Assembly: GCF_026914265.1 (NCBI RefSeq)
Contig: NC_069125.1
Location: 4,794,117 to 4,858,116, forward strand
Source: Mya arenaria
Taxonomy: Eukaryota > Mollusca > Bivalvia > Myida > Myidae
Reading direction: 5' to 3'
Length of the DNA: 64,000 nt
This document shows, one piece after another, positions 37,014-64,000 of this stretch. Below the pieces are notes generated by a model that was given only the letters and a program-made list of their open reading frames with translations, searched no databases and was not told the DNA's origin. The position numbers were made by a program, and so were the translations under genes. Numbering within the stretch: position 1 is the first letter of the stretch; every line of letters starts with the position of its first letter.

Positions 37014-37208
37014 ACCGAAAACGCAAGAAAACGGACTTTTCTAATCGCTATTTGACGATCAACACAATCGCATTTATTTCTACAAAGTCGAAAAGAGCCG
37101 ATCAAATATGGAAATGACCGAGAAACATTAACCGCGTCGATAACGTAAACTTAAATTTCACGAAAAACAAACGACCCGTGGCGGAAATAACCGAAAGGCA
37201 CCGAATGC

Positions 37209-37233
37209 GACGTCGACGTCGTGTATTGTGACG
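37209..37233 (+). promoter_or_regulatory. CRE-like palindrome upstream of gene copy 1
   Basis: GACGTCGACGTC (37209-37220) lies 65 bp before the ATG and is followed by TGACGT. These resemble ATF/CREB sites (TGACGTCA type). The motif is kept in all four copies at the same distance, at 45828, 53089 and 60621. It also occurs in the inverted promoter copies. Function is inferred. Confidence 0.5.
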
Positions 37234-37273
37234 TTTCTAAGTAACTGAGTTTTGCAACGACTAAAGATCAGCC

Positions 37274-39516
37274 ATGGGCTTTGTCGATGTACTAACACTT
37301 TGTGTTCAAAAGCGTTATAATAAATGTCTCTCAACGAGAACTTACAGGAAGTGTACCGGAAGAAGTGCCAGACGACTGAGTAAGTACAGATTATAGACTT
37401 CGATTCCAAAAGTAAAAAGCCAAATATCAATACGCAAAACTGTTTAATATAAAGTATCTATCTACCCTTATAATAATCTACTTGAAACTATATATTTAAT
37501 GAACTGACTTTGTTTCATGATTATGTGTTAACATAGGGGAATCTTGTCGTAATCGTTTCGTTAAGTCGTTATTCGTTATCAAAAATGCTGGTGGAATGGA
37601 GGCTTTATAATAAACATGAAACTACTTCCAGGAGGCTACCGGAAGGGGCGCACTGGAGTGGCCTGGCAAATAGCATGCGTAAGCGGCAACCAGGGGAGCA
37701 GGGCTCCTTTAAGGGTAACGTATATATAAGATACGGCGGGTGTGGTGTAGGCAGTGTTGATATTTTTTAATAAGTGTTGTCCTTATACATAATCAAAACA
37801 AAATTATGTATCTAAATTAACCTGCTAAATATAATTGAAATGAAATGAAATAAAAAATTGTATTCATATTTATCAATAGTCGGATTTCTTTACCATTGCA
37901 TATACAACTTAAATACAAATTGACTAAATATACTATATTGAGCAAATCACAAGGTATCATTAAAAATGAATATTTAAGAAAGAGGAATACATTGTTTCGC
38001 ATTGTTTTAGATCCGAAAATCGTTGAAAGGCGTGGCATCAAAGCCGGTTAGTAATGCTGACAGTAACCGCAAGCAGCTCATTCAGAGTAGAAAAGATCGC
38101 TACCGAAAGCAACAAATAAAACGGTTTGTATTATTTTACGGTCCATCCATCTCTTAATCCAATGCGATCCCATACAATTTCTATTGATTTGTTTTCGTTT
38201 TTTAACGATACCCTTCATTTATATCCTTGTAATTGAATTCCAGAGATGTCATTCGTGAACGCAAGCTTCAAAATGAAGGAGAGTTCAGACGGAAAACAAG
38301 AGAAAACATGCAAAGGAAACAGGGGGCTGCCGAAACCTTCGCCGCTAAGAAGATTGCGTCAGTTATTCCTAAAAATACTCATCCACGTGAAAAGCGTATT
38401 ATATTTCCAGCACCGTTGATCCCATTTCCCTTTCCACCTCCTAACCTACCACCTCCACCGCTTTACTTCCATTGGCCACCTGTACATATTCCCCCACCAC
38501 CTATCACTCCACAGTTCCCGCTAGCAATCCTTCCATCAGCAACAGCACCTCACACACAACCACTCATCTTCCCAGCACCATACATACCCTTCATACACCC
38601 TCCCTCACTCACCTGTCCATCCCCACCGCTCTACTTCCGCTGGCCGCCAGTCCATGTTCCACCTCCACCAGTTAGTCCACATTTTCCACTTCCAGTCTTT
38701 CTCCCGCCATATAAACAACAGCACACGTCCAACTTTCCCATTTACAATCCAGTATGTTACACCAACACCCTAACGCAACCAAAACAACCAAACACAACAT
38801 CCGCACAACCAAACACCACATCCGCACAACCAAACACAACATCCGCACAACAAAATACCACATCCGCACAACCAAACACCACATCCGCACAACAAAACAC
38901 CACGCCAACATACCAAAACATCACAGTCACACAACCAAACACCACATCCGCACAACCAAACACCACATCCACACACCCAAACACCACATCCGCACAACCA
39001 AACACCACATCCGCACAACCAAACACCACATCCGCACAACCAAACACCACATCCGCACAACCAAACAATACATCCACACAACCAAACATCACATCCGCAA
39101 CACCAAACACCACTACAGCACAACCAAACACTACATCCGCACAACCAAACACCACATCCGCACAACCAAACACTACCTCCGCACAACCAAACACCACATC
39201 CGAACAACCAAACACCACATCCGCACAACCAAACACTACATCCACACAACCAAACACCACATCCGAACAACAAAACACCACATCCACACAACCAAACACC
39301 ACATCCGCACAACCAAACACCACATCCACACAACCAAACACCATATCCGCACTACCAAATACCACATCAGCACAACCAAACACCACATCCGCACAACAAA
39401 ATACCACGCCAACATACCAAAACACAACAGTCACACAACCAAACACCTCATCCACACACCCAAACACGTATTTACCAACACAAACAAAATCCAGGACATC
39501 ACTTTCAACTTCCTGA
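37274..39516 (+). CDS. Proline-rich, PNTTSAQ-heptad protein, copy 1 (4 exons)
   Basis: Exons are 37274-37379, 37632-37714, 38011-38123 and 38244-39516, GT-AG and in phase, giving 524 residues. The start is MGFVDVLTLCVQKR in a GCCATGG context. This frame is supported by synonymous differences between copies: TGT/TGC and AGG/CGG in exon 1; TAC/TAT, GGG/GGT and GTG/GTT in exon 2. Residues 1-150 are rich in Arg and Lys (RERKLQNEGEFRRKTREN). Residues about 153-259 hold two ~43-residue Pro-rich repeats (PPLYFHWPPVHIPPPP and PPLYFRWPPVHVPPPP). About 30 heptads of the type PNTTSAQ follow to residue ~510. I see no clear signal peptide, membrane segment or known domain, and I do not recognise the family. 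The NTT tripeptides would be N-glycosylation sequons only if the protein were secreted. AATAAA at 39618 follows the stop. Confidence 0.72.
38788..39463 (+). repeat. 21-bp minisatellite coding the heptads, copy 1
   Basis: CCAAACACCACATCCGCACAA repeats about 32 times with scattered variants. The period is a multiple of three and the unit has no stop in several frames. Long frames therefore also appear in a second plus frame (284 codons) and on the minus strand (236 codons). Only the frame continuous with the unique part of exon 4 is called coding. Confidence 0.9.
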
Positions 39517-39617
39517 CCAACATAAACATAATTTTCAACTCAAAATCACAAGCGACCTACTCTCAATACCTAAAACCACAATATTTGATGTTAAACTTAA
39601 ATAGCTAAATTGATAGA

Positions 39618-39623
39618 AATAAA
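39618..39623 (+). promoter_or_regulatory. Poly(A) signal, gene copy 1
   Basis: AATAAA lies about 100 bp after the stop. Equivalents are at 48239, 55476 and 63008 in copies 2-4, so the hexamer is conserved in position. Confidence 0.6.
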
Positions 39624-39639
39624 GATGGAAAATGTATTT

Positions 39640-40290: not shown

Positions 40291-43200
40291 AACAGTAAGC
40301 CTCCTTTACTCGAGCAAAACTGGAGACAATAGACCTCCTTAACTCGAGCAACAATAATCCTCCTTTACTCAAGTGCAATGATAACAATAAACTTTCTTTA
40401 TTCGAGCAACAACGACAACAACAAGTCTCCTTTATTTGAGCAACAATAAGCTTCCTTAATTTGAGCAAAAATTGTTACAATAAGCGCTCTTGACTCAACC
40501 AACAATGGTCACGATGATCCTTCTTTTCTCGAACAACAAACGAAACAATAAGACAATAAGCCTCCTTTTAAGAGCAAAATGGCAACAATAAACCTTTATT
40601 AGCGCTATAATAAGCCTCCTTTACTCATGCAACAATAAGCGTCCTTACTCGAGCAACAATGGCAACAATAAGCCTCCTTTACTTGAGCAACAATGACAAC
40701 AGTAAGCGTCCTTTGCTCGAGCAACAATGGCAACAATAAGCGTCCTTCACTCTAGCAACAATGGCAACAGTAAGCGTCCTTTACTCGTGCAACAATGGCA
40801 ACAGTAAGCGTCCTTTACTCGAGCAACAATGGCAACAGTAAGCGTCCTTTGCTCGAGCAACAATGGCAACAGTAAGCGTCCATTGCTCGAGCAACAATGG
40901 CAACAATAAGTGTCCTTTACTCGAGCAATAATGGCAACAGTAAGCGTCCTTTACTCGTGTAACAATGGCAACAGTAAGCGTCCTTTGCTCGAGCAACAAT
41001 GGCAACAGTAAGCGTCCTTTGCTCGAGCAACAATGGCAACAGTAAGCGTCCTTTGCTCGAGCAACAATGGCAACAATAAGCGTCCTTTGCTCGAGCAACA
41101 ATAAGAGTCCTTTGCTCGAGCAACAATGGCAACAATAAGCGTCCTTTACTCGAGCAACAATGGCAACAATAAGCGTCCTTTACTCGAGCAACAATAAGCG
41201 TCCTTTACTCGAGCAACAATGGCAACAATAAGCGTCCTTTACTCGAGCAACAATAAGCGTTCTTTACTCGAGCAACAATGGCAACAATAAGCCTCCTTTT
41301 AAGAGCAACAATGGCTGCAATAAGCGTCCTTTACTCGAGCAACAATAAGCGTCCTTTACTTGGGCAACAATATGCGTCCTTTACTCGAGAAACAATGGCA
41401 ACAATAAACGACCTTTACTCGAGCAACAATAAGCGTCCCTTACTCAAGCAACAATGGCAACAGTAAGCGTCCTTTGCTCGAGCAATAATGGCAACAATAA
41501 GCGTCCTTTGCTCGAGCAACAATGGCAACAATAAGCGTCCTTTGCTCGAGCAACAATGACAACAATAAGCGTCCTTTACTCGAGCAGCAATGGCAACAGT
41601 AAGCGTCATTTGCTCGTGCAACAAAGGCAGCAATAAGCGTCCTTTACTCGAGCAACAATGGCAACAATAAGCGTCCTTTGCTCGAGCAACAATGGCAACA
41701 ATAAGCGTCCTTTGCTCGAGCAACAATGGCAACAATAAGTGTCCTTTACTCGAGCAATAATGGCAACAGTAAGCGTCCTTTACTCGTGTAACAATGGCAA
41801 CAGTAAGCGTCCTTTGCTCGAGCAACAATGGCAACAATAAGCGTCCTTTACTCGAGCAGCAATGGCAACAATAAGCGTCCTTACTCGAGCAACAATGGCA
41901 ACAATAAGCCTCCTTTACTTGAGCAACAATGACAACAGTAAGCGTCCTTTGCTCGAGCAACAATGGCAACAATAAGCGTCCTTTACTCGAGCAACAATGG
42001 CAACAGTAAGCGTCCTTTACTCGTGCAACAATGGCAACAGTAAGCGTCTTTTACTCGAGCAACAATGGCAACAGTAATCGTCCTTTGCTCGAGCAACAAT
42101 GGCAACAGTAAGCGTCCATTGCTCGAGCAACAATGGCAACAATAAGTGTCCTTTACTCGAGCAATAATGGCAACAGTAAGCGTCTTTTACTCGTGTAACA
42201 ATGGCAACAGTAAGCGTCCTTTGCTCGAGCAACAATGGCAACAGTAAGCGTCCTTTGCTCGAGCAACAATGGCAACAGTAAGCGTCCTTTGCTCGAGCAA
42301 CAATGGCAACAATAAGCGTCCTTTGCTCGAGCAACAATGGCAACAGTAAGAGTCCTTTGCTCGAGCAACAATGGCAACAATAAGCGTCCTTTACTCGAGC
42401 AACAATGGCAACAATAAGCGTCCTTTACTCGAGCAACAATAAGCGTCCTTTACTCGAGCAACAATGGCAACAATAAGCGTCCTTTACTCGAGCAACAATA
42501 AGCGTTCTTTACTCGAGCAACAATGGCAACAATAAGCGTCCTTTACTCGAGCAACAATGGCTGCAATAAGCCTCCTTTACTCGAGCAACAATAAGCGTCC
42601 TTTACTTGGGCAAAAATATGCGTCCTTTACTCGAGAAACAATGGCAACAATAAACGACCTTTACTCGAGCAACAATAAGCGTCCTTTACTCAAGCAACAA
42701 TGGCAACAGTAAGCGTCCTTTGTTCGAGCAATAATGGCAAAAATAAGCGTCCTTTGCTCGAGCAACAATAAGCGTCCTTTGCTCGAGCAACAATGACAAC
42801 AATAAGCGTCCTTTACTCGAGCAGCAATGGCAACAGTAAGCGTCCTTTGCTCGTGCAACAAAGGCAGCAATAAGCGTCCTTTACTCGAGCAACAATGACA
42901 ACAATAAGCGTCCTTTGCTCGAGCAACAATGGCAACAGTAAGCGTCCTTTGCTCGAGCAACAATGGCAACAATAAGTGTCCTTTACTCGAGCAATAATGG
43001 CAACAGTAAGCGTCCTTTACTCGTGTAACAATGGCAACAGGAAGCGTCCTTTGCTCGAGCAACAATGGCAACAATAAGCGTCCTTTGCTCGAGCAACAAT
43101 GGCAACAGTAAGCGTCCTTTACTCGAGCAGCAATGGCAACAATAAGCGTCCTTTACTCGAGCAACAATAAGCGTCTTTTACTCGAGCAACAATGGCAACA

Positions 43201-44091
43201 ATAAGCCTCCTTTACTCGAGCAACAATAAGCGTTCTTTACTCGAGCAACAATGGCAACAATAAGCGTCCTTTACTCGAGCAACAATGGCTGCAATAAGCG
43301 TCCTTTACTCGAGCAACAATAAGCGTCCTTTACTTGGGCAACAATATGCGTCCTTTACTCGAGAAACAATGGCAACAATAAACAACCTTTACTCGAGCAA
43401 CAATAAGCGTCCTTTACTCAAGCAACAATGGCAACAGTAAGCGTCCTTTGCTCGAGCAATAATGGCAACAATAAGCGTCCTTTGCTCGAGCAACAAGAAG
43501 CGTCCTTTGCTCGAGCAACAATGACAACAATAAGCGTCCTTTACTCGAGCAACAATGGCAACAATAAGCGTCCTTTGCTCGAGCAACAAGAAGCGTCCTT
43601 TGCTCGAGCAACAATGACAACAATAAGCGTCCTTTACTCGAGCAGCAATGGCAACAGTAAGCGTCCTTTGCTCGTGCAACAAAGGCAGCAATAAGCGTCC
43701 TTTACTCGAGCAACAATGGCAACAATAAGCGTCCTTTACTCGAGCAGCAATGGCAACAATAAGCGTCCTTTGCTCAAGCAGCAATGACAACAGTAAGTGT
43801 CCTTTGCTCGAGCATTAATGGCAACAATAAGCGTCCTTTACCCGAGCAACAATACGTCTCTTTTATTTGCGCAACAATATGTCCCCTTTATTCCAGCAAA
43901 AAAAGTAACAATAAGCGTTTTGTACTCGAGCAACAATGGTAACAATAAACCTCCTTTACTCCAGCAAAAAGTAGTAACAGTAAACGTTCTTTACTCGAGC
44001 ATCTATAAGCGTCATTTACTCGAGCAAGAACAACAACAATACTTACTTGAGCGACAATAGCAACTGTAAGCCTTCATCACTCAAGCAACAA
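40291..44091. repeat. 34-bp satellite array 1 (GCTCGAGC-containing)
   Basis: About 110 units of AAGCGTCCTTTGCTCGAGCA plus ACAATGGCAACAAT, mostly 34 bp with a shorter 25-bp variant lacking TGGCAACAA. Each unit carries the 8-bp palindrome GCTCGAGC or its variant ACTCGAGC. Both edges are degenerate (AAGCCTCC forms). Minus-strand frames up to 185 codons arise because three units equal 102 bp; they are repeat translations. Confidence 0.95.
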
Positions 44092-44282
44092 GATATCCGT
44101 TTAATTAAATTTGGTCACAGTTATGACCATGAGAACGTTTTAGGGTACTGACGGTACAAAATGATTTGTATACCGGTACATTATATTCATCTGTATTATT
44201 AAGTTATCGAACGCGAGATATTTGTTTAACGACACGATGAAACATAACTTCTAAAATCATAAAGCACAAGGCTGGTCTCCGT

Positions 44283-44424
44283 CTTTGCAAAACACAGTTG
44301 CTTAAAACGTCACAATTTTCGACGTCGACGTCGCATTCGTTGTTTCTCGACACGGATCATTTGTTATCGTGAAACAGCTGATGCGGCATCGTCACTTTTT
44401 GATAGAAGTTCCGTCATTTCCGTA
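44283..44424 (-). repeat. Inverted, ATG-less copy of the gene promoter (spacer 1)
   Basis: Read on the minus strand it has CGTGTCGAGAAACAACGAAT, then GCGACGTCGACGTCG (palindrome at 44321-44332), TTGTGACGTTTTAAGCAACT and GTTTTGCAAAGACGG. These align with the region before the gene start (GTGACGTTTCTAGGCAACTG, GTTTTGCAACGACTA). Where the gene has CAGCCATGG the inverted copy has CAGCCTTGT. It is a relic or a divergent promoter. Confidence 0.75.
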
Positions 44425-44551
44425 CTAGGTCTGCTTTTTTCGTTTATTTCAAGAAATAATGAATATGCCGTTCGTAAACAGCCGGTTATTTCTGTAAATG
44501 TCTGTCTATTTTTGTAGCCGTTGTTAATGGCGTTAACTAATTTAACTTTTT

Positions 44552-44730
44552 CAGTCGAACTCGCTACGTCGAACTCTGTTATCTCGATGTTTTGGTTATG
44601 TCGAACTTTTTAACGAATGGGTTGGGTTTAGTAGTCATGTTTTGTTTTTCGGTTATATCGAATTTTCGTTATTATTAAACTTTGTCCCAACGACATCGAC
44701 ATATCGATCGTTGACAGTTCATGCATTGAT
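44552..44730. mobile_element. MITE-like end, TCGAACTCG type (spacer 1)
   Basis: CAGTCGAACTCGCTACGTCG and TTATCTCGATGTTTTGGTTA resemble pogo/Tigger-type terminal regions. An inverted partner may be the CGGTCGCAGTTGAACTGTA phrase at about 45454-45472, giving a ~920-bp element, but the arms match poorly. Confidence 0.35.
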
Positions 44731-45892
44731 GCTCTAAATGATCAAGTTATAAGAAATAATAATCTTCCGTGAATCAACACCATGGCATTTGTTTCGGAAA
44801 TTCAGGCATTAGGACATTCATATTAAATAAAATCGTTTATCTGAAAATTTGTATGTATCACCTTTAGCATTGCAATATTATCAAATTTTCTCTTTTCAAA
44901 CAATGTTTTCCTTACCACCATAAGTGTAGCATTGTCATTTCACTACCTTTTGAAATGTTGAAACCTCCTATGTGCGAAGCTCAAAGCAGACATTTGAAAA
45001 TATTTCGATGTTGGACCGTTATGGCAAGTGTTCATTATTCATTAACATTTCCCACAATTAAATTGTACTCATAAACTTATCACAATTATCTTCTCAGATG
45101 CCCTTATCAAGTAATAGCGGTTTTGCGTAAACGGTGATAACGGGTTTTCACATCTTCTCAAATTTCTTTCATCTGTCATTGCATTTTTTACAACTTTCAA
45201 AATGTTTTAACACCTGTTATTTGTTTTTTTATTTGAAAACAGGCTTTCGGAAAAAGGCATGAACTTTTAACCTCGAGGTGATCATAAGGTTTGATAATTT
45301 GGGACCGGCAATGCCAATGGTGCTCGAGTCCTCGGCTTATCTTAGTTTCGATCCATTGTCTATATTTTTTATATGAAAATAGAAGGAATAATGGTCTGGA
45401 CAAAGCCTCGACTTCGACCGATCGCCAGTTTTCGACGACCGCCTGTTCGAACGGTCGCAGTTGAACTGTATATAGAGTCTACATACATGTGTTTTTCGCG
45501 TAATTGCAATATCGCTTGTTTTATTTCGCGAATGAATGTTATTTGTTTAATAAAATTGATTATCTAGAAGAAATAAGCATGTATTGGTCAAAGCGTGTCG
45601 TATTGGTGCAAAGTGAAAGAAAGTTGCACAAAAATCGAAAACAAGACGGACTTTAGTAATCTCCAATGAACGACCAACACATTTGTCTGTATTTCTACAA
45701 AGTCGAAAATAGCCGATCAGAATTAATACGAATATGACCGAGAAACATTAACCGCGTCGATAACGTAAAAATAAATTTCACGAAAACAAACGATCCGTGG
45801 CGGAAATAACCGAAAGGCACCGAATGCGACGTCGACGTCGTGTATTGTGACGTTTCTAGGCAACTGAGTTTTGCAACGACTAAAGATCAGCC

Positions 45893-48137
45893 ATGGGCTT
45901 TGTCGATGTGCTAACACTTTGTGTTCAAAAGCGTAAAAACAAATGCCTCTCAACGAGAACTTACCGGAAGTGTACCGGAAGAAGTGCCAGACGACTGAGT
46001 AAGTACAGATTATAGACTTCGATTCCAAAAATAAACGTAAAAAGCCAAATATCAATACGCAAAACTGTTTAATATAAAATATCTATCTACCCTTATAATA
46101 ATCTACTTGAAACTATATATTTAATGAACTGACTTTGTTTCATGATTATGTGTAAACATAGGGGAATCTTGTCGTAATCGTTTCGTTAAGTCGTTATTCG
46201 TTATCAAAAATGCTGGTGGAATGGAGGCTTTATAATAAACATGAAACTACTTCCAGGAGGCTACCGGAAGGGGCGCACTGGAGTGGCCTGGCAAATAGCA
46301 TGCGTAAGCGGCAACCAGGGGAGCAGGGCTCCTTTAAGGGTAACGTATATATAAGATACGGCGGGTGTGGTGTAGGCAGTGTTGATATTTTTTAATAAGT
46401 GTTGTCCTTATACATAAACAAAACAAAATTATGTATCTAAATTAACCTGCTAAATATAATTGAAATGAAATGAAATAAAAAATTGTATTCTTATTTATCA
46501 ATAGTCGGATTTCTTTACCGTTGCATATACAACTTAAATACAAATTCAATAAATATACTATATTGAGCAAATCACAAGGTATCATTCAAAATCAATATTT
46601 AAGAAAGAGGAATACATTGTTTCGCATTGTTTTAGATCCGAAGATCGTTGAAAGGCGTGGCATCAAAGCCGGTTAGTAATGCTGACAGTAACCGCAAGCA
46701 GCTCATTCAGAGTAGAAAAGATCGCTACCGAACGCAACAAATAAAACGGTTTGTATTATTTTACGGTCCATCCATCCATCTATTGATTTGTTTTCGTTTT
46801 TTTAATGATACCCTTCATTTATATCCTTGTAATTGAATTCCAGAGATGCCGTTCGTGAACGCAAGCTTCAAAATGAAGGAGAGTTCAGACGGAAAACAAG
46901 AGAAAACATGCAAAGGAAACAGGGGGCAGCCGAAACCTTCGCCGCTAAGAAGATTGCTTCAGTTATTCCTAAAAATACTCGTCCACGCGAAAAGCGCATT
47001 ATATTTCCAGCACCTTTGATCCCATTTCCCTTTCCACCTCCTAACCTACCACCTCCACCACTTTACTTCCATTGGCCACCTGTACATATACCCCCACCAC
47101 CTATCACTCCACAGTTCACGCTAGCAATCCTTCCATCAGCAACAGCACCTCACACACAAACACTCATCTTCCCAGCACCATACATACCCTTCATACACCC
47201 TCCCTCACTCACCTGTCCACCCCCACCGCTCTACTTCCGCTGGCCGCCAGTCCATGTTCCACCTCCACCAGTTAGTCCACATTTTCCACTTCCAGTCTTT
47301 CTTCCACCATATACACAACACCACACTTCCAACTTTCCCATTTACAATTTACCATATAACACCAATACTCCAACACAACCTAAACAACCAAACACAACAT
47401 CCACACAACCAAACACAACATCCGCAAAACAAAACACCACATCCGCACAACCAAACACCACATCCGCACAACCAAACACCACATCCGCACAACCAAACAC
47501 CACATCCGCACAACCAAACACCACATCCGCACAACAAAATACCACATCCGCACAACCAAACACCACATCCGCACAACCAATCACCACATCCGCACAACAA
47601 AACACCACATCGGCACAACCAATCCCCACATCCGCACAACAAAATACCACATCCGCACAACCAAACACCACATCCGCACAACCAAACACACCATCCGCAC
47701 AACCAAACACCACATCCGCACAACCAAACACCACATCCGCACAACCAAACACCACATCCGCACAACCAAACACACCATCCGCACAACCAAACACCACATC
47801 CGCACAACCAAACACCACATCCGCACAACCAAACACACCATCCGCACAACCAAACACCACATCCGCACAACCAAACACTACATACGAACAACCAAACACC
47901 ACATCCGCACAACCAAACACCACGCCAACACACCAAAACACCACATTCGCACAACCAAACACCACGCCAACACACCAAAACACCACATTCGCACAACCAA
48001 ACACCACGCCAACACACCAAAACACCACATTCGCACAACCAAACACCACGCCAACACACCAAAACACCACATCCGCACAACCAAACACGTATTTACCTAC
48101 ACAAACACAATCCAGGACATCACTTCTAACTTCCTGA
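45893..48137 (+). CDS. Proline-rich, PNTTSAQ-heptad protein, copy 2 (4 exons)
   Basis: Exons are 45893-45998, 46257-46339, 46636-46748 and 46844-48137, in phase, giving 531 residues. Exon 1-3 sequences match copy 1 with few changes. Exon 4 is 21 nt longer than in copy 1, exactly one heptad. The heptad tract contains distinctive variants QPITTSAQ and QPIPTSAQ, also found in copy 4 but not in copy 3. It ends with alternating PNTTPTHQ and NTTFAQ units. The ORF is intact. The CRE-like palindrome is at 45828-45839. Function is unknown. Confidence 0.72.
47388..48088 (+). repeat. 21-bp heptad minisatellite, copy 2
   Basis: About 33 units of CCAAACACCACATCCGCACAA, ending with CACGCCAACACACCAAAACA variants. 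Other frames are also open, including 291 codons in another plus frame and 248 on the minus strand. Confidence 0.9.
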
Positions 48138-48910: not shown

Positions 48911-51351
48911 CAGTAAGCCTCCTTTACTCGAGCAAAACTGGCGACAACAGACCTCCTTAACTCGAGCAACAAAAAAACATCCTGTACTCAAGAGCAATGG
49001 TAACAATAAACTTTCTTTATTCGAGCAACAACGACAACAACAAGTCTCCTTTATTTGAGCAACAACAAGCCTCCTTAATTCGAGCAAAATGGTCACAATA
49101 AGCGCTTTTGACTCAACTAACAATGGTCACGATGATCATTCTTTTCTCGAACAACAAATGAAACAATAAGACAAAAAGCCTCCTTTAAGAGGAAAATGGC
49201 AACAATAGACCTTTATCAGCGCAACAATAAGCCTCCTTTACTCATGCAACAATGGCAACAATAAGCCTCCTTTACTCGAGCAACAATGGCAACAATAAGC
49301 GTCCTTTGCTCGAGCAACAGTAAGCGTCCTTTGCTCGAGTTTCAATGGCAACAATAAGCGTCATTTGCTCGAGCAACCATGGCAACAATAAGCGTCATTT
49401 GCTCGAGCAACAATAAGCGTCCTTTACTCGAGCTACAATTGCAACAATAAGCGTCCTTTGCTCGAGCAACAATAGCAACAATAAGCGTCCTTTGCTCGAG
49501 CAACAATAAGCGTCCTTTGCTCGAGCTACAATTGCAACAATAAGCGTCCTTTGCTCGAGCAACAATGGCAACAATAAGCGTCCTTTGCTCGATCAACAAT
49601 GGCAACAATAAGCGTCCTTTACTCATGCAACAATGGCAACAATAAGCGTCCTTTGCTCGAGTAACAATGGCAACAATAAGCGTCCTTTGCTCGAGCAACA
49701 ATGACAACAATAAGCGTCATTTGCAACAATAAGCGTCATTTGCTCGAGTTACAATGGCAACAATAAGCGTCCTTTGCTCGAGCAACAATGGCAACAATAA
49801 GCGTCTTTTGCTCGAGCAACAATGGCAACAATAAGCGTCCTTTGCTCGAGCAACAATGGCAACATTAAGCGTCCTTTGCTCGGGCAACCATGACAACAAT
49901 AAACGTCATTTGCTCGAGCAACAATGACAACAATAAGCGTCACTTGCTCGAGCAACAATGACAACAATAAGGGTCATTTGCTCGAGCAACAATGACAACA
50001 ATTAGCGTCATTTGCTCGGGCAACAGTAAGCGTCATTTGCTCGAGCAACAATGACAACAATAAGCGTCCTTTGCTCGGGCAACAGTAAGCGTCCTTTGCT
50101 CGAGTTTCAATGGCAACATTAAGCGTCCTTTGCTCGAGCAACAATGGCAACAATAAGCGTCCTTTGCTCGGGCAACAATGGCAACAATAAGCGTCATTTG
50201 CTCGAGCAACAATGGCAACAATAAGCGTCCTTTGCTCGGGCAACAATGGCAACATTAAGCGTCCTTTGCTCGGGCAACCATGACAACAATAAACGTCATT
50301 TGCTCGAGCAACAATGACAACAATAAGCGTCACTTGCTCGAGCAACAATGACAACAATAAGCGTCATTTGCTCGAGCAACAATGACAACAATTAGCGTCA
50401 TTTGCTCGGGCAACAGTAAGCGTCATTTGCTCGGGCAACAATGACAACAATAAGCGTCCTTTGCTCGGGCAACAATGGCAACAATAAGCGTCATTTGCTC
50501 GAGCAACAATGGCAATAATAAGCGTCCTTTGCTCGAGCAAAAATGACAACAATAAGCGTCATTTGCAACAATAAGCGTCCTTTGCTCGAGTTACAATGGC
50601 AACAATAAGCGTCCTTTGCTCGAGCAACAATGGCAACAATAAGCGTCCTTTGCTCGAGCAACAATGGCAACAATAAGCGTCCTTTGCTCGGGCAACAATG
50701 ACAACAATAAGCGTCATTTGCAACAATAAGCGTCATTTGCTCGAGTTACAATGGCAACAATAAGCGTCCTTTGCTCGAGCAACAATGGCAACAATAAGCG
50801 TCCTTTGCTCGTGCAACAAAGGCAGCAATAAGCGTCCTTTGCTCGAGCAACCATGGCAACAATAAGCGTCATTTGCTCGAGCTACAATGGCAACAATAAG
50901 CGTCATTTGCTCGAGTTACAATGGCAACAATAAGCGTCATTTTCTCGAGTTACAATGGCAACAATAAGCGTCATTTGCAAATATAACCGTCATTTTCTCG
51001 AGTTACAATGGCAACAATAAGCCTCCTTTGCTCGTGCAACAATTGCAACAATAAGCGTTCTTTACTCGAGCAACGATGGCAACAAATGCGTCCTTTACTC
51101 GAGCAACAATACGTTTTATTTGCGCAACAATAAGTCCCCTTTATTCCAGCAAGAAATAGTAACAATAAGCGTTTTGTACTCGAGCAACAATGGTTACAAT
51201 AAACCTCCTTTACTCCTGCAAAAAGTAGTAACAATAAACGTTCTGTACTCGAGCATCTATAATCGTCATTTACTCGAGCAACAACAACAACAATAAAGTC
51301 ACTTACTTGAGCAACGATAGCAACTGTAAGCCTTCATCACTCGAGCAACAA
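48911..51351. repeat. 34-bp satellite array 2
   Basis: The same unit as array 1, about 72 copies over 2.44 kb. Variants with CATTTGCTCGAG and GCTCGGGC are frequent here and in array 3 but rare in array 1. Confidence 0.95.
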
Positions 51352-52896
51352 GATATCCGTTTAATTTAAATTTGGTCACAGTTATGACCATGAGAACGTT
51401 TTAGGGTACTGACGGTACAAAATGATTTGTATACCGGTACATTATATTCATCTGTATTATTAAGTTATCGAACGCGAGATATTTGTTTAACGACACGATG
51501 AAACATAACTTCTAAAATCATAAAGCACAAGGCTGGTCTCCGTCTTTGCAAAACACAGTTGCTTAAAACGTCACAATTTTCGACGTCGACGTCGCATTCG
51601 TTGTTTCTCGACACGGATCATTTGTTATCGTGAAACACCTGATGCGGCATCGTCACTTTTTGATAGAAGTTCCGTCATTTCCGTACTAGGTCTGCTTTTT
51701 TCGTTTATTTCAAGAAATAATGAATATGCCGTTCGTAAACATCCGGTTATTTCTGTAAATGTCTGTCTATTTTTGTAGCCGTTGTTAATGGCGTTAACTA
51801 ATTTAACTTTTTCAGTCGAACTCGCTACGTCGAACTCTGTTATCTCGATGTTTTGGTTATGTCGAACTTTAACGAATGTGTTGGGTTTAGTTAGTCATGT
51901 TTTGTATTTCGGTTATATCGAATTTTCGTTATTATTTAACTTTGTCCCAACGACATCGAAATATCGATCGTTGACAGTTCATGCATTGATGCTCTAAATG
52001 ATCAAGTTATAAGAAATAATAATCTTCCGTGAATCAACACCATGGCATTTGTTTCGGAAATTCAGGCATTAGGACATTCATATTAAATAAAATCGTTTAT
52101 CTGAAAATTTGTATTTATCACCTTTAGCAATGCAATATTATCAAATTTTCTCTTTTCAAACAATGTTTTCCTTACCACCATAAGTGTAGCATTGTCATTT
52201 CACTACCTTTTGAAATGTTGAAACCTCCTATGCGCGAAGCTCAAAGCAGACATTTGAAAATATTTCGATGTTGGACCGTTATGGCAAGTGTTCATTATTC
52301 ATTAACATTTCTCTCAATTAAATTGCAATCATAACTTTATCACAATTATCTTCTCAGATGCCCTTTTCGAGTATAGCAGTTTTGGGTAAACGGGTTTTCA
52401 CATCTTCTCAAATTTCTTTCATGTGCAATTGCAATTCTTACAACTTGCAAAGTGTTTTAACACCTGTTATTTGTTTTTGTTTTTATTTGAGAACATGCTT
52501 TCGGCAAAATTCATGCAATTTTAACCTCGAGGTGGTCATAAGGTTTGCGCATCATTTGATAATATTGGGACCGGCAAAGGAGCTCAAGTCCTCGACTTAT
52601 TTAAGTTTTGATCCATCGTCAGTACTTTTTATACGAACATAGAAGAAATAATGGTCGGGACTAAGCCTCGACTTCGACCGATCGTGAGTTTTCGAACTAC
52701 TAAATATCGCCTGTTCGAACGATCGCAGTTAAACTGTATATAGAGTCTATATACATGTGTGTTTCGCGTAATTGCAAAATCGCTTGTTTTGTTTCGCGAA
52801 TGATGTTATTTGTTTCATAAAATTGATTATCTAGAACAAATAAGCGTGTATTGGTCAAAGCGTGTCGTATTGGTGCAAAGTAATGGAAAGTTGCAC
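51352..52896. other. Spacer 2 between units 2 and 3
   Basis: Collinear with spacers 1 and 3 and nearly identical to spacer 3 at an offset of 7,532 bp. It holds the inverted promoter copy (51544-51685) and the TCGAACTCG-type stretch from about 51815. Small frames at 51782-51997, 52358-52642 and 52700-52954 recur in spacer 3 only because the spacer is duplicated. Confidence 0.6.
51544..51685 (-). repeat. Inverted promoter copy (spacer 2)
   Basis: Same as 44283-44424, with the GACGTCGACGTC palindrome at about 51582. It lies about 1.47 kb upstream of gene copy 3 in opposite orientation. Confidence 0.75.
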
Positions 52897-53153: not shown

Positions 53154-55374
53154 ATGGGCTTTGTCGATGTACTAACACTTTGTGTTCAAAAGCGTAAAAA
53201 AAAATGTCTCGCAACGAGAACTTACAGGAAGTGTACCGGAAGAAGTGCCAGACGACTGAGTAAGTACAAATTATATATTTTGATTACGAAAAGCCGTAAA
53301 AAGTTTAATTTCATCTCGCAAAGCTTTTTAATATGAAATTTCGAGCTACCCTTATAAAAAGCAAATCGAAACTATTTATGATGTTTAACATCAGGGAATT
53401 TTGCCTTTTTAACAATTGTTTCGTAAGGATATTTGTTATCATTAACGCTGGTGGAAAGAAGGCTTTATAATAAAAATGAACATACTTCCAGGAGCCTATC
53501 GGAAGGGTCGCGCTGGAGTTGCCTGGCAAATAATAGCTTGCGTAAGCGGCCACCGGGGAAGCAGGGCTCCTTTAAGGGTAACTTGTATATATATGATATG
53601 GCGGAGGTGGTGTAGGCAGTGTTGATATTTAATTAGTGTTGTCCTTACACAGAAACAAAACAAAATTATGTATCTAAATAAACATAAATATAATTGAAAT
53701 TAAAAAATATTTTTGTATCAATAGTCGGATTTCTTTACCGTCACATGCATAACTTAAATACACTTTAAATAAATATACTTTTTTAAGCTCATCACAATGC
53801 ATCACTATAAAATCAGTATTTAAAAAGGGGAATACATTGACTCGAATTGTTTTAGATCCGAAGATCGTTGAAAGGCGTGGCATCAAAACTGGTCCGAAAT
53901 GCTGACAGTAACCGCAAGCAGCTCATTCAGAGTAGAAAAGATCGCTACCGAAAGCAGCAAATAAAACGGTTGGTATTATTTTACGGTCCATCCATCTCTT
54001 ATTTCAATGCGATCCCATACATTTTCTATAGATTTGTTTTAATGATATCTTTCATTTAAATCCTTGTAATTGAAATCCAGAGATGCCGTGCGTGAACGCA
54101 AGCTTCAAAATGAAGGAGAGTTCCGACGGAAAACAAGAGAAAACATGCAAAGGAAACAGGGGACTGCCGAAACCTTCGCCGCTATGAAGATTGCTTCAGT
54201 AATTCCAAAAAATACTCGTCCACGCAAAAAGCGCATTATATTTCCAGCACCGTTGATCCCATTTCCCTTTCCACCTCCTAACCTACCACCTCCACCACTT
54301 TACTTCCATTGGCCACCTGTACATATACCCCCACCACCTATCACTCCACAGTTCCCGCTAGCAATCCTTCCATCAGCAACAGCACCTCACACACAACCAC
54401 TCATCTTCCCAGCACCATACATACCCTTCATACACCCTCCCTCACTCACCTGTCCACCCCCACCGCTCTACTTCCGCTGGCCGCCAGTCCATGTTCCACC
54501 TCCACCAGTTAGTCCACATTTTCCACTTCCAGTCTTTCTTCCACCATATACACAACACCACACTTCCAACTTTCCCATTTACAATTTACCATATAACACC
54601 AATACTCCAACACAACCTAAACAACCAAACACCACATCCGCACAACCAAACACCACATCCGCACAACAAAACACCACATCCGCACAACCAAACACCACAT
54701 CCGCACAACCAAACACCACATCCGCACAACCAAACACCACATCCGCACAACAAGACACCACATCCGCACAACAAAATACCACATCCGCACAACCAAACAC
54801 CACATCCGCACAACCAAACACCACATCCGCACAACCAAACACCACATCCGCACAACCAAACACCACATCCGCACAACAAAATACCACATCCGCACAACCA
54901 AACACCACATCCGCACAACCAAACACACCATCCGCACAACCAAACACCACATCCGCACAACCAAACACCACATCCGCACAACCAAACACCACATCCGCAC
55001 AACCAAACACACCATCCGCACAACCAAACACCACATCCGCACAACCAAACACCACATCCGCACAACCAAACACACCATCCGCACAACAAAACACCACATC
55101 CGCACAACCAAACACTACATACGAACAACCAAACACCACATCCGCACAACCAAACACCACGCCAACACACCAAAACACCACATTCGCACAACCAAACACC
55201 ACGCCAACACACCAAAACACCACATTCGCACAACCAAACACCACGCCAACACACCAAAACACCACATCCGCACAACCAAACACCACGCCAACACACCAAA
55301 ACACCACATCCGCACAACCAAACACGTATTTACCAACACAAACACAATCCAGGACATCACTTCTAACTTCCTGA
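53154..55374 (+). CDS. Proline-rich, PNTTSAQ-heptad protein, copy 3 (4 exons)
   Basis: Exons are 53154-53259, 53492-53577, 53856-53968 and 54081-55374, in phase, giving 532 residues. Exon 2 has one extra codon (Ile) against copies 1 and 2. That keeps the reading frame through this exon and supports coding. Substitutions specific to copies 3 and 4 include GTAETFAAMK for GAAETFAAKK and RPRKKRIIF for RPREKRIIF. The heptad tract lacks the QPITTSAQ and QPIPTSAQ variants and has a QQDTTSAQ unit. The CRE-like palindrome is at 53089-53100 and AATAAA at 55476. Confidence 0.72.
54625..55325 (+). repeat. 21-bp heptad minisatellite, copy 3
   Basis: About 33 units. Exon 4 is exactly as long as in copies 2 and 4 (1,294 nt), although the order of variant units differs. 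Confidence 0.9.
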
Positions 55375-55956: not shown

Positions 55957-56146
55957 ATTATTATCGGATCTAAAAGACACGAAAAGATCTATACGACCTT
56001 CACAAAAGCAATGTTTATTATACCTTACTTTGAGCCATTCTCATCGGGTGGCCGCTAATGCGGGCTGCAACCTCCCATGTCACTCTGGCATTCCCTTGTC
56101 GGTAAATGTCTTCAGTTCTATGACTAAACAGAAGCCTCAATGTCAA

Positions 56147-58882
56147 CAGTAAGCCTCCTTTACTCGAGCAAAACTGGCGACAACAGACCTCCTTAACTCG
56201 AGCAACAAAAAAAACATCATGTACTCAAGAGCAATGGTAACAATAAACTTTCTTTATTCGAGCAACAACGACAACAACAAGTCTCCTTTATTTGAGCAAC
56301 AACAAGCCTCCTTAATTCGAGCAAAATGGTCACAATAAGCGCTTTTGACTCAACTAACAATGGTCACGATGATCATTCTTTTCTCGAACAACAAATGAAA
56401 CAATAAGACAAAAAGCCTCCTTTAAGAGGAAAATGGCAACAATAGACCTTTATCAGCGCAACAATAAGCCTCCTTTACTCATGCAACAATGGCAACAATA
56501 AGCCTCCTTTACTCGAGCAACAATGGCAACAATAAGCGTCCTTTGCTCGAGCAACAGTAAGCGTCCTTTGCTCGAGTTTCAATGGCAACAATAAGCGTCA
56601 TTTGCTCGAGCAACCATGGCAACAATAAGCGTCATTTGCTCGAGCAACAATAAGCGTCCTTTACTCGAGCTACAATTGCAACAATAAGCGTCCTTTGCTC
56701 GAGCAACAATAGCAACAATAAGCGTCCTTTGCTCGAGCAACAATAAGCGTCCTTTGCTCGAGCTACAATTGCAACAATAAGCGTCCTTTGCTCGAGCAAC
56801 AATGGCAACAATAAGCGTCCTTTGCTCGATCAACAATGGCAACAATAAGCGTCCTTTGCTCGAGCAACAATAAGCGTCCTTTACTCGAGCTACAATTGCA
56901 ACAATAAGCGTCCTTTGCTCGAGCAACAATAGCAACAATAAGCGTCCTTTGCTCGAGCAACAATAAGCGTCCTTTGCTCGAGCTACAATTGCAACAATAA
57001 GCGTCCTTTGCTCGAGCAACAATGGCAACAATAAGCGTCCTTTGCTCGATCAACAATGGCAACAATAAGCGTCCTTTGCTCGAGCAACAATGGCAACAAT
57101 AAGCGTCCTTTGCTTGAGCAACAATGGCAACAATAAGCGTCTTTTGCTCGAGCAACAATGGTAACAATAAGCGTCCTTTACTCGAGCAACAATGGCAACA
57201 ATAAGCGTCCTTTACTCATGCAACAATGGCAACAATAAGCGTCCTTTGCTCGAGTAACAATGGCAACAATAAGCGTCCTTTGCTCGAGCAACAATGACAA
57301 CAATAAGCGTCATTTGCAACAATAAGCGTCATTTGCTCGAGTTACAATGGCAACAATAAGCGTCCTTTGCTCGAGCAACAATGGCAACAATAAGCGTCTT
57401 TTGCTCGAGCAACAATGGCAACAATAAGCGTCATTTGCTCGAGCAACAATGGCAACATTAAGCGTCCTTTGCTCGGGCAACCATGACAACAATAAACGTC
57501 ATTTGCTCGAGCAACAATGACAACAATAAGCGTCACTTGCTCGAGCAACAATGACAACAATAAGCGTCATTTGCTCGAGCAACAATGACAACAATTAGCG
57601 TCATTTGCTCGGGCAACAGTAAGCGTCATTTGCTCGAGCAACAATGACAACAATAAGCGTCCTTTGCTCGGGCAACAGTAAGCGTCCTTTGCTCGAGTTT
57701 CAATGGCAACATTAAGCGTCCTTTGCTCGAGCAACAATGGCAACAATAAGCGTCCTTTGCTCGGGCAACAATGGCAACAATAAGCGTCATTTGCTCGAGC
57801 AACAATGGCAACAATAAGCGTCCTTTGCTCGGGCAACAATGGCAACATTAAGCGTCCTTTGCTCGGGCAACCATGACAACAATAAACGTCATTTGCTCGA
57901 GCAACAATGACAACAATAAGCGTCACTTGCTCGAGCAACAATGACAACAATAAGCGTCATTTGCTCGAGCAACAATGACAACAATTAGCGTCATTTGCTC
58001 GGGCAACAGTAAGCGTCATTTGCTCGAGCAACAATGACAACAATAAGCGTCCTTTGCTCGGGCAACAATGGCAACAATAAGCGTCATTTGCTCGAGCAAC
58101 AATGGCAATAATAAGCGTCCTTTGCTCGAGCAAAAATGACAACAATAAGCGTCATTTGCAACAATAAGCGTCCTTTGCTCGAGTTACAATGGCAACAATA
58201 AGCGTCCTTTGCTCGAGCAACAATGGCAACAATAAGCGTCCTTTGCTCGAGCAACAATGGCAACAATAAGCGTCCTTTGCTCGGGCAACATTAAGCGTCC
58301 TTTGCTTGAGTTTCAAAGGCAACATTAAGCGTCCTTTGCTCGAGCAACAATGGCAACAATAAGCGTCCTTTGCTCGAGCAACCATGGCAACAATAAGCGT
58401 CATTTGCTCGAGCTACAATGGCAACAATAAGCGTCATTTGCTCGAGTTACAATGGCAACAATAAGCGTCATTTTCTCGAGTTACAATGGCAACAATAAGC
58501 GTCATTTGCAAATATAACCGTCATTTTCTCGAGTTACAATGGCAACAATAAGCCTCCTTTGCTCGTGCAACAATTGCAACAATAAGCGTTCTTTACTCGA
58601 GCAACGATGGCAACAATAAGCGTCCTTTACTCGAGCAACAATACGTTTTATTTGCGCAACAATAAGTCCCCTTTATTCCAGCAAGAAATAGTAACAATAA
58701 GCGTTTTGTACTCGAGCAACAATGGTTACAATAAACCTCCTTTACTCCTGCAAAAAGTAGTAACAATAAACGTTCTGTACTCGAGCATCTATAACCGTCA
58801 TTTACTCGAGCAACAACAACAACAATAAAGTCACTTACTTGAGCAACGATAGCAACTGTAAGCCTTCATCACTCGAGCAACA
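56147..58882. repeat. 34-bp satellite array 3
   Basis: About 80 units over 2.74 kb. It is collinear with array 2 except for an internal duplication: units around 56645-56830 recur at about 56865-57060. It lacks a short block near 50700-50830 of array 2. Confidence 0.95.
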
Positions 58883-60428
58883 AGATATCCGTTTAATTTA
58901 AATTTGGTCACAGTTATGACCATGAGAACGTTTTAGGGTACTGACGGTACAAAATGATTTGTATACCGGTACATTATATTCATCTGTATTATTAAGTTAT
59001 CGAACGCGAGATATTTGTTTAACGACACGATGAAACATAACTTCTAAAATCATAAAGCACAAGGCTGGTCTCCGTCTTTGCAAAACACAGTTGCTTAAAA
59101 CGTCACAATTTTCGACGTCGACGTCGCATTCGTTGTTTCTCGACACGGATCATTTGTTATCGTGAAACACCTGATGCGGCATCGTCACTTTTTGATAGAA
59201 GTTCCGTCATTTCCGTACTAGGTCTGCTTTTTTCGTTTATTTCAAGAAATAATGAATATGCCGTTCGTAAACAGCCGGTTATTTCTGTAAATGTCTGTTT
59301 ATTTTTGTAGCCGTTGTTAATGGCGTTAACTAATTTAACTTTTTCAGTCGAACTCGCTACGTCGAACTCTGTTATCTCGATGTTTTGGTTATGTCGAACT
59401 TTAACGAATGTGTTGGGTTTAGTTAGTCATGTTTTGTATTTCGGTTATATCGAATTTTCGTTATTATTTAACTTTGTCCCAACGACATCGAAATATCGAT
59501 CGTTGACAGTTCATGCATTGATGCTCTAAATGATCAAGTTATAAGAAATAATAATCTTCCGTGAATCAACACCATGGCATTTGTTTCGGAAATTCAGGCA
59601 TTAGGACATTCATATTAAATAAAATCGTTTATCTGAAAATTTGTATTTATCACCTTTAGCAATGCAATATTATCAAATTTTCTCTTTTCAAACAATGTTT
59701 TCCTTACCACCATAAGTGTAGCATTGTCATTTCACTACCTTTTGAAATGTTGAAACCTCCTATGCGCGAAGCTCAAAGCAGACATTTGAAAATATTTCGA
59801 TGTTGGACCGTTATGGCAAGTGTTCATTATTCATTAACATTTCTCTCAATTAAATTGCAATCATAACTTTATCACAATTATCTTCTCAGATGCCCTTTTC
59901 GAGTATAGTAGTTTTGGGTAAACGGGTTTTCACATCTTCTCAAATTTCTTTCATGTGCAATTGCAATTCTTACAACTTGCAAAGTGTTTTAACACCTGTT
60001 ATTTGTTTTTGTTTTTATTTGAGAACATGCTTTCGGCAAAATTCATGCAATTTTAACCTCGAGGTGGTCATAAGGTTTGCGCATCATTTGATAATATTGG
60101 GACCGGCAAAGGAGCTCAAGTCCTCGACTTATTTAAGTTTTGATCCATCGTCAGTACTTTTTATACGAACATAGAAGAAATAATGGTCGGGACTAAGCCT
60201 CGACTTCGACCGATCGTGAGTTTTCGAACTACTAAATATCGCCTGTTCGAACGATCGCAGTTAAACTGTATATAGAGTCTATATACATGTGTGTTTCGCG
60301 TAATTGCAAAATCGCTTGTTTTGTTTCGCGAATGATGTTATTTGTTTCATAAAATTGATTATCTAGAACAAATAAGCGTGTATTGGTCAAAGCGTGTCGT
60401 ATTGGTGCAAAGTAATGGAAAGTTGCAC
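58883..60428. other. Spacer 3 between units 3 and 4
   Basis: Nearly identical to spacer 2. It holds the inverted promoter copy at about 59076-59217 and a TCGAACTCG-type stretch from 59347. No supported gene. Confidence 0.6.
59076..59217 (-). repeat. Inverted promoter copy (spacer 3)
   Basis: Same as those at 44283 and 51544, with the GACGTCGACGTC palindrome near 59115. Confidence 0.75.
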
Positions 60429-60685: not shown

Positions 60686-62906
60686 ATGGGCTTTGTCGAT
60701 GTACTAACACTTTGTGTTCAAAAGCGTAAAAAAAAATGTCTCGCAACGAGAACTTACAGGAAGTGTACCGGAAGAAGTGCCAGACGACTGAGTAAGTACA
60801 AATTATATATTTTGATTACGAAAAGCCGTAAAAAGTTTAATTTCATCTCGCAAAGCTTTTTAATATGAAATTTCGAGCTACCCTTATAAAAAGCAAATCG
60901 AAACTATTTATGATGTTTAACATCAGGGAATTTTGCCTTTTTAACAATTGTTTCGTAAGGATATTTGTTATCATTAACGCTGGTGGAAAGAAGGCTTTAT
61001 AATAAAAATGAACATACTTCCAGGAGCCTATCGGAAGGGTCGCGCTGGAGTTGCCTGGCAAATAATAGCTTGCGTAAGCGGCCACCGGGGAAGCAGGGCT
61101 CCTTTAAGGGTAACTTGTATATATATGATATGGCGGAGGTGGTGTAGGCAGTGTTGATATTTAATTAGTGTTGTCCTTACACAGAAACAAAACAAAATTA
61201 TGTATCTAAATAAACATAAATATAATTGAAATTAAAAAATATTTTTTTATCAATAGTCGGATTTCTTTACCGTCACATGCATAACTTAAATACACTTTAA
61301 ATAAATATACTTTTTTAAGCTCATCACAATGCATCACTATAAAATCAGTATTTAAAAAGGGGAATACATTGACTCGAATTGTTTTAGATCCGAAGATCGT
61401 TGAAAGGCGTGGCATCAAAACTGGTCCGAAATGCTGACAGTAACCGCAAGCAGCTCATTCAGAGTAGAAAAGATCGCTACCGAAAGCAGCAAATAAAACG
61501 GTTGGTATTATTTTACGGTCCATCCATCTCTTATTTCAATGCGATCCCATACATTTTCTATAGATTTGTTTTAATGATATCTTTCATTTAAATCCTTGTA
61601 ATTGAAATCCAGAGATGCCGTGCGTGAACGCAAGCTTCAAAATGAAGGAGAGTTCCGACGGAAAACAAGAGAAAACATGCAAAGGAAACAGGGGACTGCC
61701 GAAACCTTCGCCGCTATGAAGATTGCTTCAGTAATTCCAAAAAATACTCGTCCACGCAAAAAGCGCATTATATTTCCAGCACCGTTGATCCCATTTCCCT
61801 TTCCACCTCCTAACCTACCACCTCCACCACTTTACTTCCATTGGCCACCTGTACATATACCCCCACCACCTATCACTCCACAGTTCCCGCTAGCAATCCT
61901 TCCATCAGCAACAGCACCTCACACACAACCACTCATCTTCCCAGCACCATACATACCCTTCATACACCCTCCCTCACTCACCTGTCCACCCCCACCGCTC
62001 TACTTCCGCTGGCCGCCAGTCCATGTTCCACCTCCACCAGTTAGTCCACATTTTCCACTTCCAGTCTTTCTTCCACCATATACACAACACCACACTTCCA
62101 ACTTTCCCATTTACAATTTACCATATAACACCAATACTCCAACACAACCTAAACAACCAAACACAACATCCACACAACCAAACACAACATCCGCACAACC
62201 AAACACCACATCCGCACAACCAAACACCACATCCGCACAACCAAACACCACATCCGCACAACCAAACACCACATCCGCACAACCAAACACCACATCCGCA
62301 CAACAAAATACCACATCCGCACAACCAAACACCACATCCGCACAACCAATCACCACATCTGCACAACAAAACACCACATCGGCACAACCAATCCCCACAT
62401 CCGCACAACAAAATACCACATCCGCAAAACCTAACACCACATCCGCACAACCAAACACACCATTCGCACAACCAAACACCACATCCACACAACCAAACAC
62501 CACATCCGCACAACCAAACACCACATCCGCACAACCAAACACACCATCCGCACAACCATACACCACATCCGTAAAACCAAACACCACATCCGCACAACCA
62601 AACACACCATCCGCACAACAAAACACCACATCCGCACAACCAAACACTACATACGAACAACCAAACACCACATCTGCACAACCAAACACCACGCCAACAC
62701 ACCAAAACACCACATTCGCACAACCAAACACCACGCCAACACACCAAAACACCACATTCACACAACCAAACACCACGCCAACACACCAAAACACCACATT
62801 CGCACAACCAAACACCACGCCAACACACCAAAACACCACATCCGCACAACCAAACACGTATTTACCAACACAAACACAATCCAGGACATCACTTCTAACT
62901 TCCTGA
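60686..62906 (+). CDS. Proline-rich, PNTTSAQ-heptad protein, copy 4 (4 exons)
   Basis: Exons are 60686-60791, 61024-61109, 61388-61500 and 61613-62906, in phase, giving 532 residues. Exons 1-3 and the start of exon 4 equal copy 3. The heptad tract has QPITTSAQ and QPIPTSAQ as in copy 2. It also has unique changes (SAKPNTT, NTPFAQ, QPYTTSVK). The ORF is intact. The CRE-like palindrome is at 60621-60632 and AATAAA at 63008. Confidence 0.72.
62157..62857 (+). repeat. 21-bp heptad minisatellite, copy 4
   Basis: About 33 units, with more private substitutions than copies 2 and 3. Minus-strand frames up to 248 codons are by-products of the repeat. Confidence 0.9.
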
Positions 62907-62999
62907 CCAACAAAAACATAATGTTCAACTCAAAATCACAAGCGATCTTCTCTCAATACCTAAAACCACAATATTTGATGTTAAACTTAAATATATAAA

Positions 63000-63488
63000 T
63001 TGATAGAAATAAAAATAGAAAAATATATTTGTGTTGTTTTAATTCAGGTGAAATACGCTAACACCAAAATAAATGGCCGAACTAATTCCGATGTTATTAT
63101 TTTTGGCTCCTCGTTCGTTTTCAAACACCAATGTATGGTGTTAGCCTCGGTGTCGGTGATGATGTCGGTGTCGGTGTGCGAAACATTAATCTTGGATGTA
63201 ACTCATCAATTCACAAGAATCCGTGTTCGCAATTTACCAGAGACATGCACTCATAACTTAATAATTAGTTTCGAGTTATGCCCATACCGGCCAAAAGCAA
63301 CATTAGAAGAGCATTGGACCTCGCTCATCGGCGCTTTTGTCAGAATTGAATGGTGTGGTGTATGGTTGTATGGATGTTATGCTAGGTTGTGTGATGTTTT
63401 ACTGGATACACATGCCGCTTTTGTTCGAATACCGCATCTCTGGAATTCGATTGCTAAGTTAATTTCTGACGATTTGCCACGCCCTTAA
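63000..63488 (+). other. Open frame of unclear status, 162 codons (unit 4)
   Basis: Same translation as at 48231 and 55468. Probable non-coding tail, open by recent duplication. Confidence 0.22.
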
Positions 63489-63678
63489 ATTATTATCGGA
63501 TCTTAAAGACACGAAAAGATCTATACGACCTTCACAAAAGCAATGTTTATTATACCTTACTTTGAGCCATTCTCATCGGGTGGCCGCTAATGCGGGCTGC
63601 AACCTCCCATGTCACTCTGGCATTCCCTTGTCGGTAAATGTCTTCAGTTCTATGACTAAACAGAAGCCTCAATGTCAA

Positions 63679-64000
63679 CAGTAAGCCTCCTTTACTCGAG
63701 CAAAACTGGCGACAACAGACCTCCTTAACTCGAGCAACAAAAAAGACATCATGTACTCAAGAGCAATGGTAACAATAAACTTTCTTTATTCGAGCAACAA
63801 CGACAACAACAAGTCTCCTTTATTTGAGCAACAACAAGCCTCCTTAATTCGAGCAAAATGGTCACAATAAGCGCTTTTGACTCAACTAACAATGGTCACG
63901 ATGATCATTCTTTTCTCGAACAACAAATGAAACAATAAGACAAAAAGCCTCCTTTAAGAGGAAAATGGCAACAATAGACCTTTATCAGCGCAACAATAAG
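63679..64000. repeat. 34-bp satellite array 4, start only
   Basis: The degenerate left edge of the array (AGTAAGCCTCCTTTACTCGA onward) as in arrays 2 and 3; it runs off the window. Confidence 0.85.

Follow-up and report, generated by a model that had tools for sequence, protein, structure and literature searches.

From about position 36991 of the 64,000-nucleotide stretch of the Mya arenaria genome analysed here (C4:4794117-4858116, termed the window), and continuing past its end, lie what are likely to be five intact protein-coding genes in tandem, apparently lineage-restricted (the eukaryote search being of this genome), whose product is basic, largely disordered and perhaps nuclear, in an array that evolves by unequal exchange. 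Judged from sequence, the genes probably constitute a real, functional and uncharacterised family in a recombining array, with a function that we infer. The kind of system, a tandem gene array with satellite, is already known, and this one provides a compact natural case of an uncharacterised gene under selection during array expansion, in which gene, promoter, satellite and exchange breakpoints can all be read.

The homologous units start at ~36991, 45606, 52873 and 60405 (spacings of 8615, 7267 and 7532 bp, the next being 7312 bp), and the array extends to ~74,240 in window-extended coordinates, where the satellite of the fifth copy stops. Five genes (c1-c5) alternate head-to-tail with four spacers, with ATGs at 37274, 45893, 53154, 60686 and, in window-extended coordinates, 67998; the last of these is 3998 bp beyond the window end, at C4:4862114, the c5 gene occupying C4:4862114-4864481. 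The initial annotation of the window had envisaged four gene-plus-satellite units: their tandem arrangement, with spacings of 7267-8615 bp, stands, the copies being five in number. Its intact four-exon gene in each unit is borne out by the absence of internal stops and by GT-AG introns in all five copies, as is a separate 34-bp satellite block per unit, present alongside the 21-bp heptad array. Genome-wide searches covered 1,216,080,610 bases in 18 contigs, one of which, 17,947 bp long and with an in-frame TGA in its COX1 gene, was taken as mitochondrial, leaving 17 others; the published reference is described as 1.22 Gb in 17 scaffolds (PMC10663159). A 301-base piece of the gene, and a promoter/exon-1 piece, had matches within the array only. 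Elsewhere in the window, upstream of the array, an ORF at 8736-9194 (+) with a RAD51D N-terminal domain (PF21794, E 3.2e-14) is a RAD51D exon; a 28-bp/113-bp tandem array at 12641-16037 has its minus strand open for 1076 aa, with no Pfam match at E<=0.1, and further minisatellites are at 22048-22522 (28-bp units) and 18884-19137 (83-bp units).

Table 1. Coordinates, within the window, of the genes, promoter copies and satellite blocks of the array
Feature	Position	Strand	Remarks
c1 promoter/5'UTR cassette	37151..37273	+	carries CGACGTCGACGTCG...ATTGTGACGTTT
c1 exon 1	37274..37379	+	begins MGFVDVLTLCVQKR...; start in GCCATGG
c1 exon 2	37632..37714	+	open frame, GT-AG boundaries
c1 exon 3	38011..38123	+	open frame, GT-AG boundaries
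c1 exon 4	38244..39516	+	encodes basic helix, then Pro-rich module twice, then 32 full heptads (QPNTTSA type) and stop; AATAAA at 39618
c1 34-bp satellite block	40629..44001	+	repeat detection and pattern search
Inverted promoter copy, spacer 1	44261..44374	-	covers promoter plus initial 9 coding bases at 76-78% identity; core motif unchanged
c2 gene	45893..48137	+	exons 45893-45998, 46257-46339, 46636-46748, 46844-48137; mosaic
c2 satellite block	49221..51255	+	repeat detection and pattern search
Inverted promoter copy, spacer 2	51522..51635	-	match to gene 5' end
c3 gene	53154..55374	+	exons 53154-53259, 53492-53577 (extra codon), 53856-53968, 54081-55374
c3 satellite block	56458..58787	+	repeat detection and pattern search
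Inverted promoter copy, spacer 3	59054..59167	-	match to gene 5' end
c4 gene	60686..62906	+	exons 60686-60791, 61024-61109 (extra codon), 61388-61500, 61613-62906
c4 repeat region start	63804..64000	+	satellite-like 25-bp units start at 63804 and 34-bp units at ~63990, the latter running beyond window end

The frame is open over the four exons of every copy, all 15 introns being GT-AG, and yields proteins of 524, 531, 532, 532 and 581 residues (c1-c5) that in c1 open MGFVDVL..., with an AATAAA 102 bases 3' of the stop in each of the five. Exon 1 has two competing frames, of which canonical donors and acceptors join only that of the GCCATGG at 37274; the alternative (MSLNEN in c1) was rejected since canonical splicing cannot join it, and in c3-c5 it would be disrupted by a 2-base insertion immediately following the donor of exon 2. 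An additional exon-2 codon, initially ascribed to a single copy, is an Ile codon in three of the five (c3, c4 and c5), absent from c1 and c2. Also rejected was a second conserved ORF in the 3' region, which is 165 aa in c2-c4 (identical there), 102 aa in c1 and 71 aa in c5.

Upstream of the heptads, the reading frame and splice sites of the five-copy gene are kept under purifying selection. There dN/dS is 0.38 for c1-c3 (Fisher p 0.0009), 0.29 for c2-c3 (0.0006) and 0.32 for c1-c2 (0.0005), and with such values, each at p<0.001, the gene is probably functional. For exons 1-3 alone the corresponding figures are 0.48 (p=0.09), 0.29 (p=0.005) and 0.30 (p=0.09), the first being the comparison, copy 1 with copy 3, to which the initial annotation had pointed, and which is below 1 and not significant; c3-c5 are too alike for the test (3 silent and 2 replacement differences, p=0.10). 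Four of the ten copy pairs entered the dN/dS computation, two the simulation, two the region tests and three the indel comparison, and owing to their shared history through exchange the pairs are non-independent tests. Under neutral simulation with the intron spectrum, a replacement fraction as low as that observed upstream of the heptads for c1-c3 arose in 0.06% of runs; with the same spectrum, the fraction for exons 1-3 and the basic part of exon 4 was matched in 0.44% (c1-c3) and 0.08% (c2-c3), the simulated lists for these two pairs omitting the indel-adjacent codon at 37673 that the dN/dS count includes. Outcomes free of stops made up 6%, 9% and 11% of runs, and so are not rare.

Divergence over exons 1-3 and the basic part of exon 4 is 34/462 sites between c1 and c3 as against 101/609 in introns (p=3.1e-6), and 30/462 as against 95/587 between c2 and c3 (p=6.5e-7), the exon side of these region tests ending at 38403, with the Pro part, heptads and tail left out. 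Promoter and exon 1 differ from flank and intron 1 in the same direction (9/228 versus 78/381 for c1-c3, p=1.3e-9; p=7.6e-8 for the second pair tested); the contrast between exons 2-4 (basic) and introns 2-3 is weaker (p=0.019 and 0.013 in two pairs), with exon 2 scarcely better conserved than intron 2 (10/83 versus 41/275, c1-c3). In c1-c3, where exchange between copies blurs the signal, conservation of the Pro part does not exceed that of the 3' flank (18/377 versus 12/291). A single coding indel, of 3 bp, separates c1 from c3; their introns have 11 (lengths 4, 27, 6, 3, 2, 3, 3, 14, 1, 1 and 8), six of them not multiples of 3.

In order, the protein comprises ~150 K/R-rich residues with a predicted helix, two ~48-residue Pro-rich modules and 32-40 heptads of the QPNTTSA type. 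In c1, c2, c3 and c5, the copies for which composition was calculated (c4 was left out), the first 151-152 residues are 28-31% K/R with a pI of 11.5-11.8, the Pro part is 34-35% Pro and the whole protein has a pI of 10.7-11.2 and 9-10% K/R, while S, T and N account for 52-58% of the repeat part, making these PTS-rich tandem repeats. AlphaFold, given 179 exon-4 residues from the four copies in the window, predicted a helix at residues 2-38 and nothing confident elsewhere (mean pLDDT 57, pTM 0.18). The full heptads number 171 over the five copies (32, 33, 33, 33 and 40), in 50 distinct forms, and no constraint on them was detectable in the five copies: normalised N/S is 0.91 in the coding frame, a value that only one of the five other frames does not fall below. 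Since a 21-bp period is enough to preserve frame, and other frames through the heptads are open too, frame retention here is no evidence for coding. The initial suggestion that a frame kept through the repeats bespeaks function therefore falls, and the functional family that it proposed is upheld on the dN/dS of 0.29-0.38 upstream of the heptads instead. The heptads look like a length-variable tail of which composition alone is kept.

Divergence between copies varies along the unit. Between c1 and c2 it is 0.8% in intron 1 and 17.6% in the 5' flank; between c2 and c3 it falls from 22.6% in intron 1 to 0.8% across the Pro part and 0% over the 3' flank, c2 being a mosaic of c1-like introns and a c3-like 3' part. 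This is how copies look after unequal crossing-over or conversion whose breakpoints lie inside the unit. Exons 1-3 of c3-c5 are identical, with 0-1 intron differences per pair, and these copies are accordingly recent or freshly homogenised; despite that identity, c5 differs from c3 by 3.4-3.8% after the stop. The initial view of an expanding family is thus no more than partly right, in that these three copies may be recent and exchange is visible. The main role of satellite and heptads would be to provide homology for unequal crossing-over, through which both copy number and heptad number would change. Known tandem arrays subject to unequal crossing-over or gene conversion likewise have head-to-tail units, mosaics, near-identical recent copies and varying repeat number; this array differs in having a satellite found here only and a gene that matches no known family searched.

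The promoter cassettes of c1, c2 and c3 diverge by 3-4%, compared with 13-18% in the flank immediately upstream. Each of the four spacers has a 127-bp inverted match to the 5' end of the gene, a minus-strand promoter copy (76-78% identical) in which TTG replaces ATG, the fourth spacer being beyond the window. The core CGACGTCGACGTCGNNNATTGTGACGTTT, in its c1 and c2 form, is unchanged in all four spacer copies, c3-c5 being one base off, and at <=3 mismatches it occurs in nine places genome-wide, all of them array promoters or their spacer copies (a backward control pattern had one match). The 26 kept core positions against a background of 76% suggest constraint, or could be due to chance. Spacers 1 and 2 differ at 2/500 sites in 44100-44600, which could reflect exchange or constraint, and by as much as 10-24% in 45100-45400; the spacer part at ~45000-45475 is a dispersed genomic repeat (40 scored and matched of 2844 first-look candidates genome-wide). 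The satellite is private to this locus at <=3 mismatches: a 35-base search pattern at that threshold had 226 forward and no reverse matches genome-wide, all in the array among the matches listed, and a count in the array alone also gave 226 (70, 30, 39, 34 and 53 per block).

It is very unlikely that the units are decaying or non-coding repeats whose open frames persist through recency and low stop density, without selection. The near identity of c3-c5, heptads open in several frames and stop-free neutral runs (6-11%) are what this would lead one to expect, but dN/dS is well below 1 between diverged copies, promoter and exon 1 stay similar although the sequences on either side of them have diverged, and splice sites and polyA signals are kept in all five copies. 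Highly improbable is a mobile element, the unit being a gene-carrying transposon with the inverted promoter copies as its terminal inverted repeats: though the 127-bp inverted match is in every spacer, the inverted segments are ~1.2 kb inside the start of the next unit, away from the unit ends, the c1 queries match no Pfam transposase, and gene, promoter and satellite, the Pro module excepted, have no match outside the array genome-wide. A search for dispersed copies, as expected of a DNA transposon, found none, five C9 stretches sharing no unit DNA at E 1e-8.

A different kind of alternative, rather unlikely in our estimation, concerns the product, which would be a secreted mucin-like or structural glycoprotein, cleavage at a conserved RxKR releasing the heptads, as a glycosylated Thr/Asn stalk, from a basic propeptide. 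In its favour, the repeat part is rich in S, T and N, each protein has 27-34 NxS/T sequons (32, 28, 29, 27 and 34 in c1-c5), and the RxKR, which in all five copies precedes the Pro modules (residue 149 or 150), would suit a secreted precursor and so counts against a nuclear location; however, in a region with 28-31% K/R that motif is likely to occur by chance. By hydropathy, no convincing signal peptide is apparent, the most hydrophobic 9-mer of c1, FVDVLTLCV, containing Asp, and c1 has an in-frame TAA (read by eye) four codons 5' of its ATG. Mucin-like Thr/Ser/Pro repeat proteins resemble the array protein in freely varying T/S/N/P-rich heptads and in varying repeat number; the latter, in contrast, has no clear signal peptide, a strongly basic N-terminus and no Pfam domain. 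For the reading preferred here, that of a disordered basic protein from an exchanging array, composition and short K/R clusters hint at an intracellular, perhaps nuclear, product, whose basic N-terminus might associate with an acidic partner, nucleic acid for example, with the Pro modules perhaps acting as docking motifs and the heptad tail as a disordered spacer. Sperm nuclear basic and protamine-like proteins are basic, fast-evolving, largely disordered and bound to sperm chromatin; the likeness extends to the first three properties, but the K/R content of the array protein is only 9-10% overall, and there is almost no charge in its long Pro and heptad parts. Expression in gonad, haemocytes or mantle, if it occurs, would make the array protein a candidate for a fast-evolving protein of the clam.

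Neither the array protein nor its module has a credible match in Pfam, the PDB or the viral contigs searched; the module has kin within its own genome. Two c1 queries (282 aa without heptads, and the first 155 aa) gave no Pfam family at E<=10, HMMER filters dropping most weak matches, and in the PDB the c1 query gave no credible relative, a ribosomal L14e match (E 0.042) being rejected as basic low-complexity (best stretch i-Evalue 2.1). Viral origin was also rejected: of the 80 pattern matches that an exon-4 alignment had in IMG/VR, tblastn confirmed none. The strings PNTTSAQ, TTSAQPN, NTTSAQP and PPPPLYF were not found as plain text in the literature searched. As regards Pfam and the PDB, then, the initial description of the protein as unrecognised stands; it is qualified by a Pro-rich module common to other loci of the same genome.

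Outside the array, protein matches in this genome are to the module only, C9 having four and C3 a single one (E 0.003-0.005), with three further C9 places when one relative serves as query, eight in all; a reversed-query control was negative (best E 9.2). Four aligned modules, of which each array protein has two, share 13 invariant columns, and the pattern IFPAP..PPPLYF..PPVH.PPP is common to array and C9/C3 loci; the module offers a handle for finding relatives. In two relatives examined in detail it begins behind what looks like an AG acceptor and terminates in a stop, and is therefore probably a last exon; one of the two, at C9:57486302, appears frameshifted. The C9/C3 loci have a single module and no heptads, whereas array proteins have two modules and heptads, and their C-terminus differs (IKIEDASDND... 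at C9:48.73 Mb). A shared basic exon was not found upstream of the three C9 relatives compared (A, B and C), A-B matches being mainly interspersed-repeat-like, A-C having none and B-C one that was weak. A broader scheme, in which the module defines an undescribed bivalve gene family, one branch of which gave the five-gene array, and in which antisense transcription from the inverted, constrained spacer promoter runs through the private satellite, regulating or recombining the array, is speculative and unlikely. Single-module Pro-rich exons are at C9:41073405, 46838572, 48638928 and 48730910 and at C3:89230097; four of these loci (three on C9 and that on C3) share 98-99% identity across 3 kb, while the remaining one has 90-91% identity to them across 1.9 kb, reflecting either recent spread or segmental duplication.
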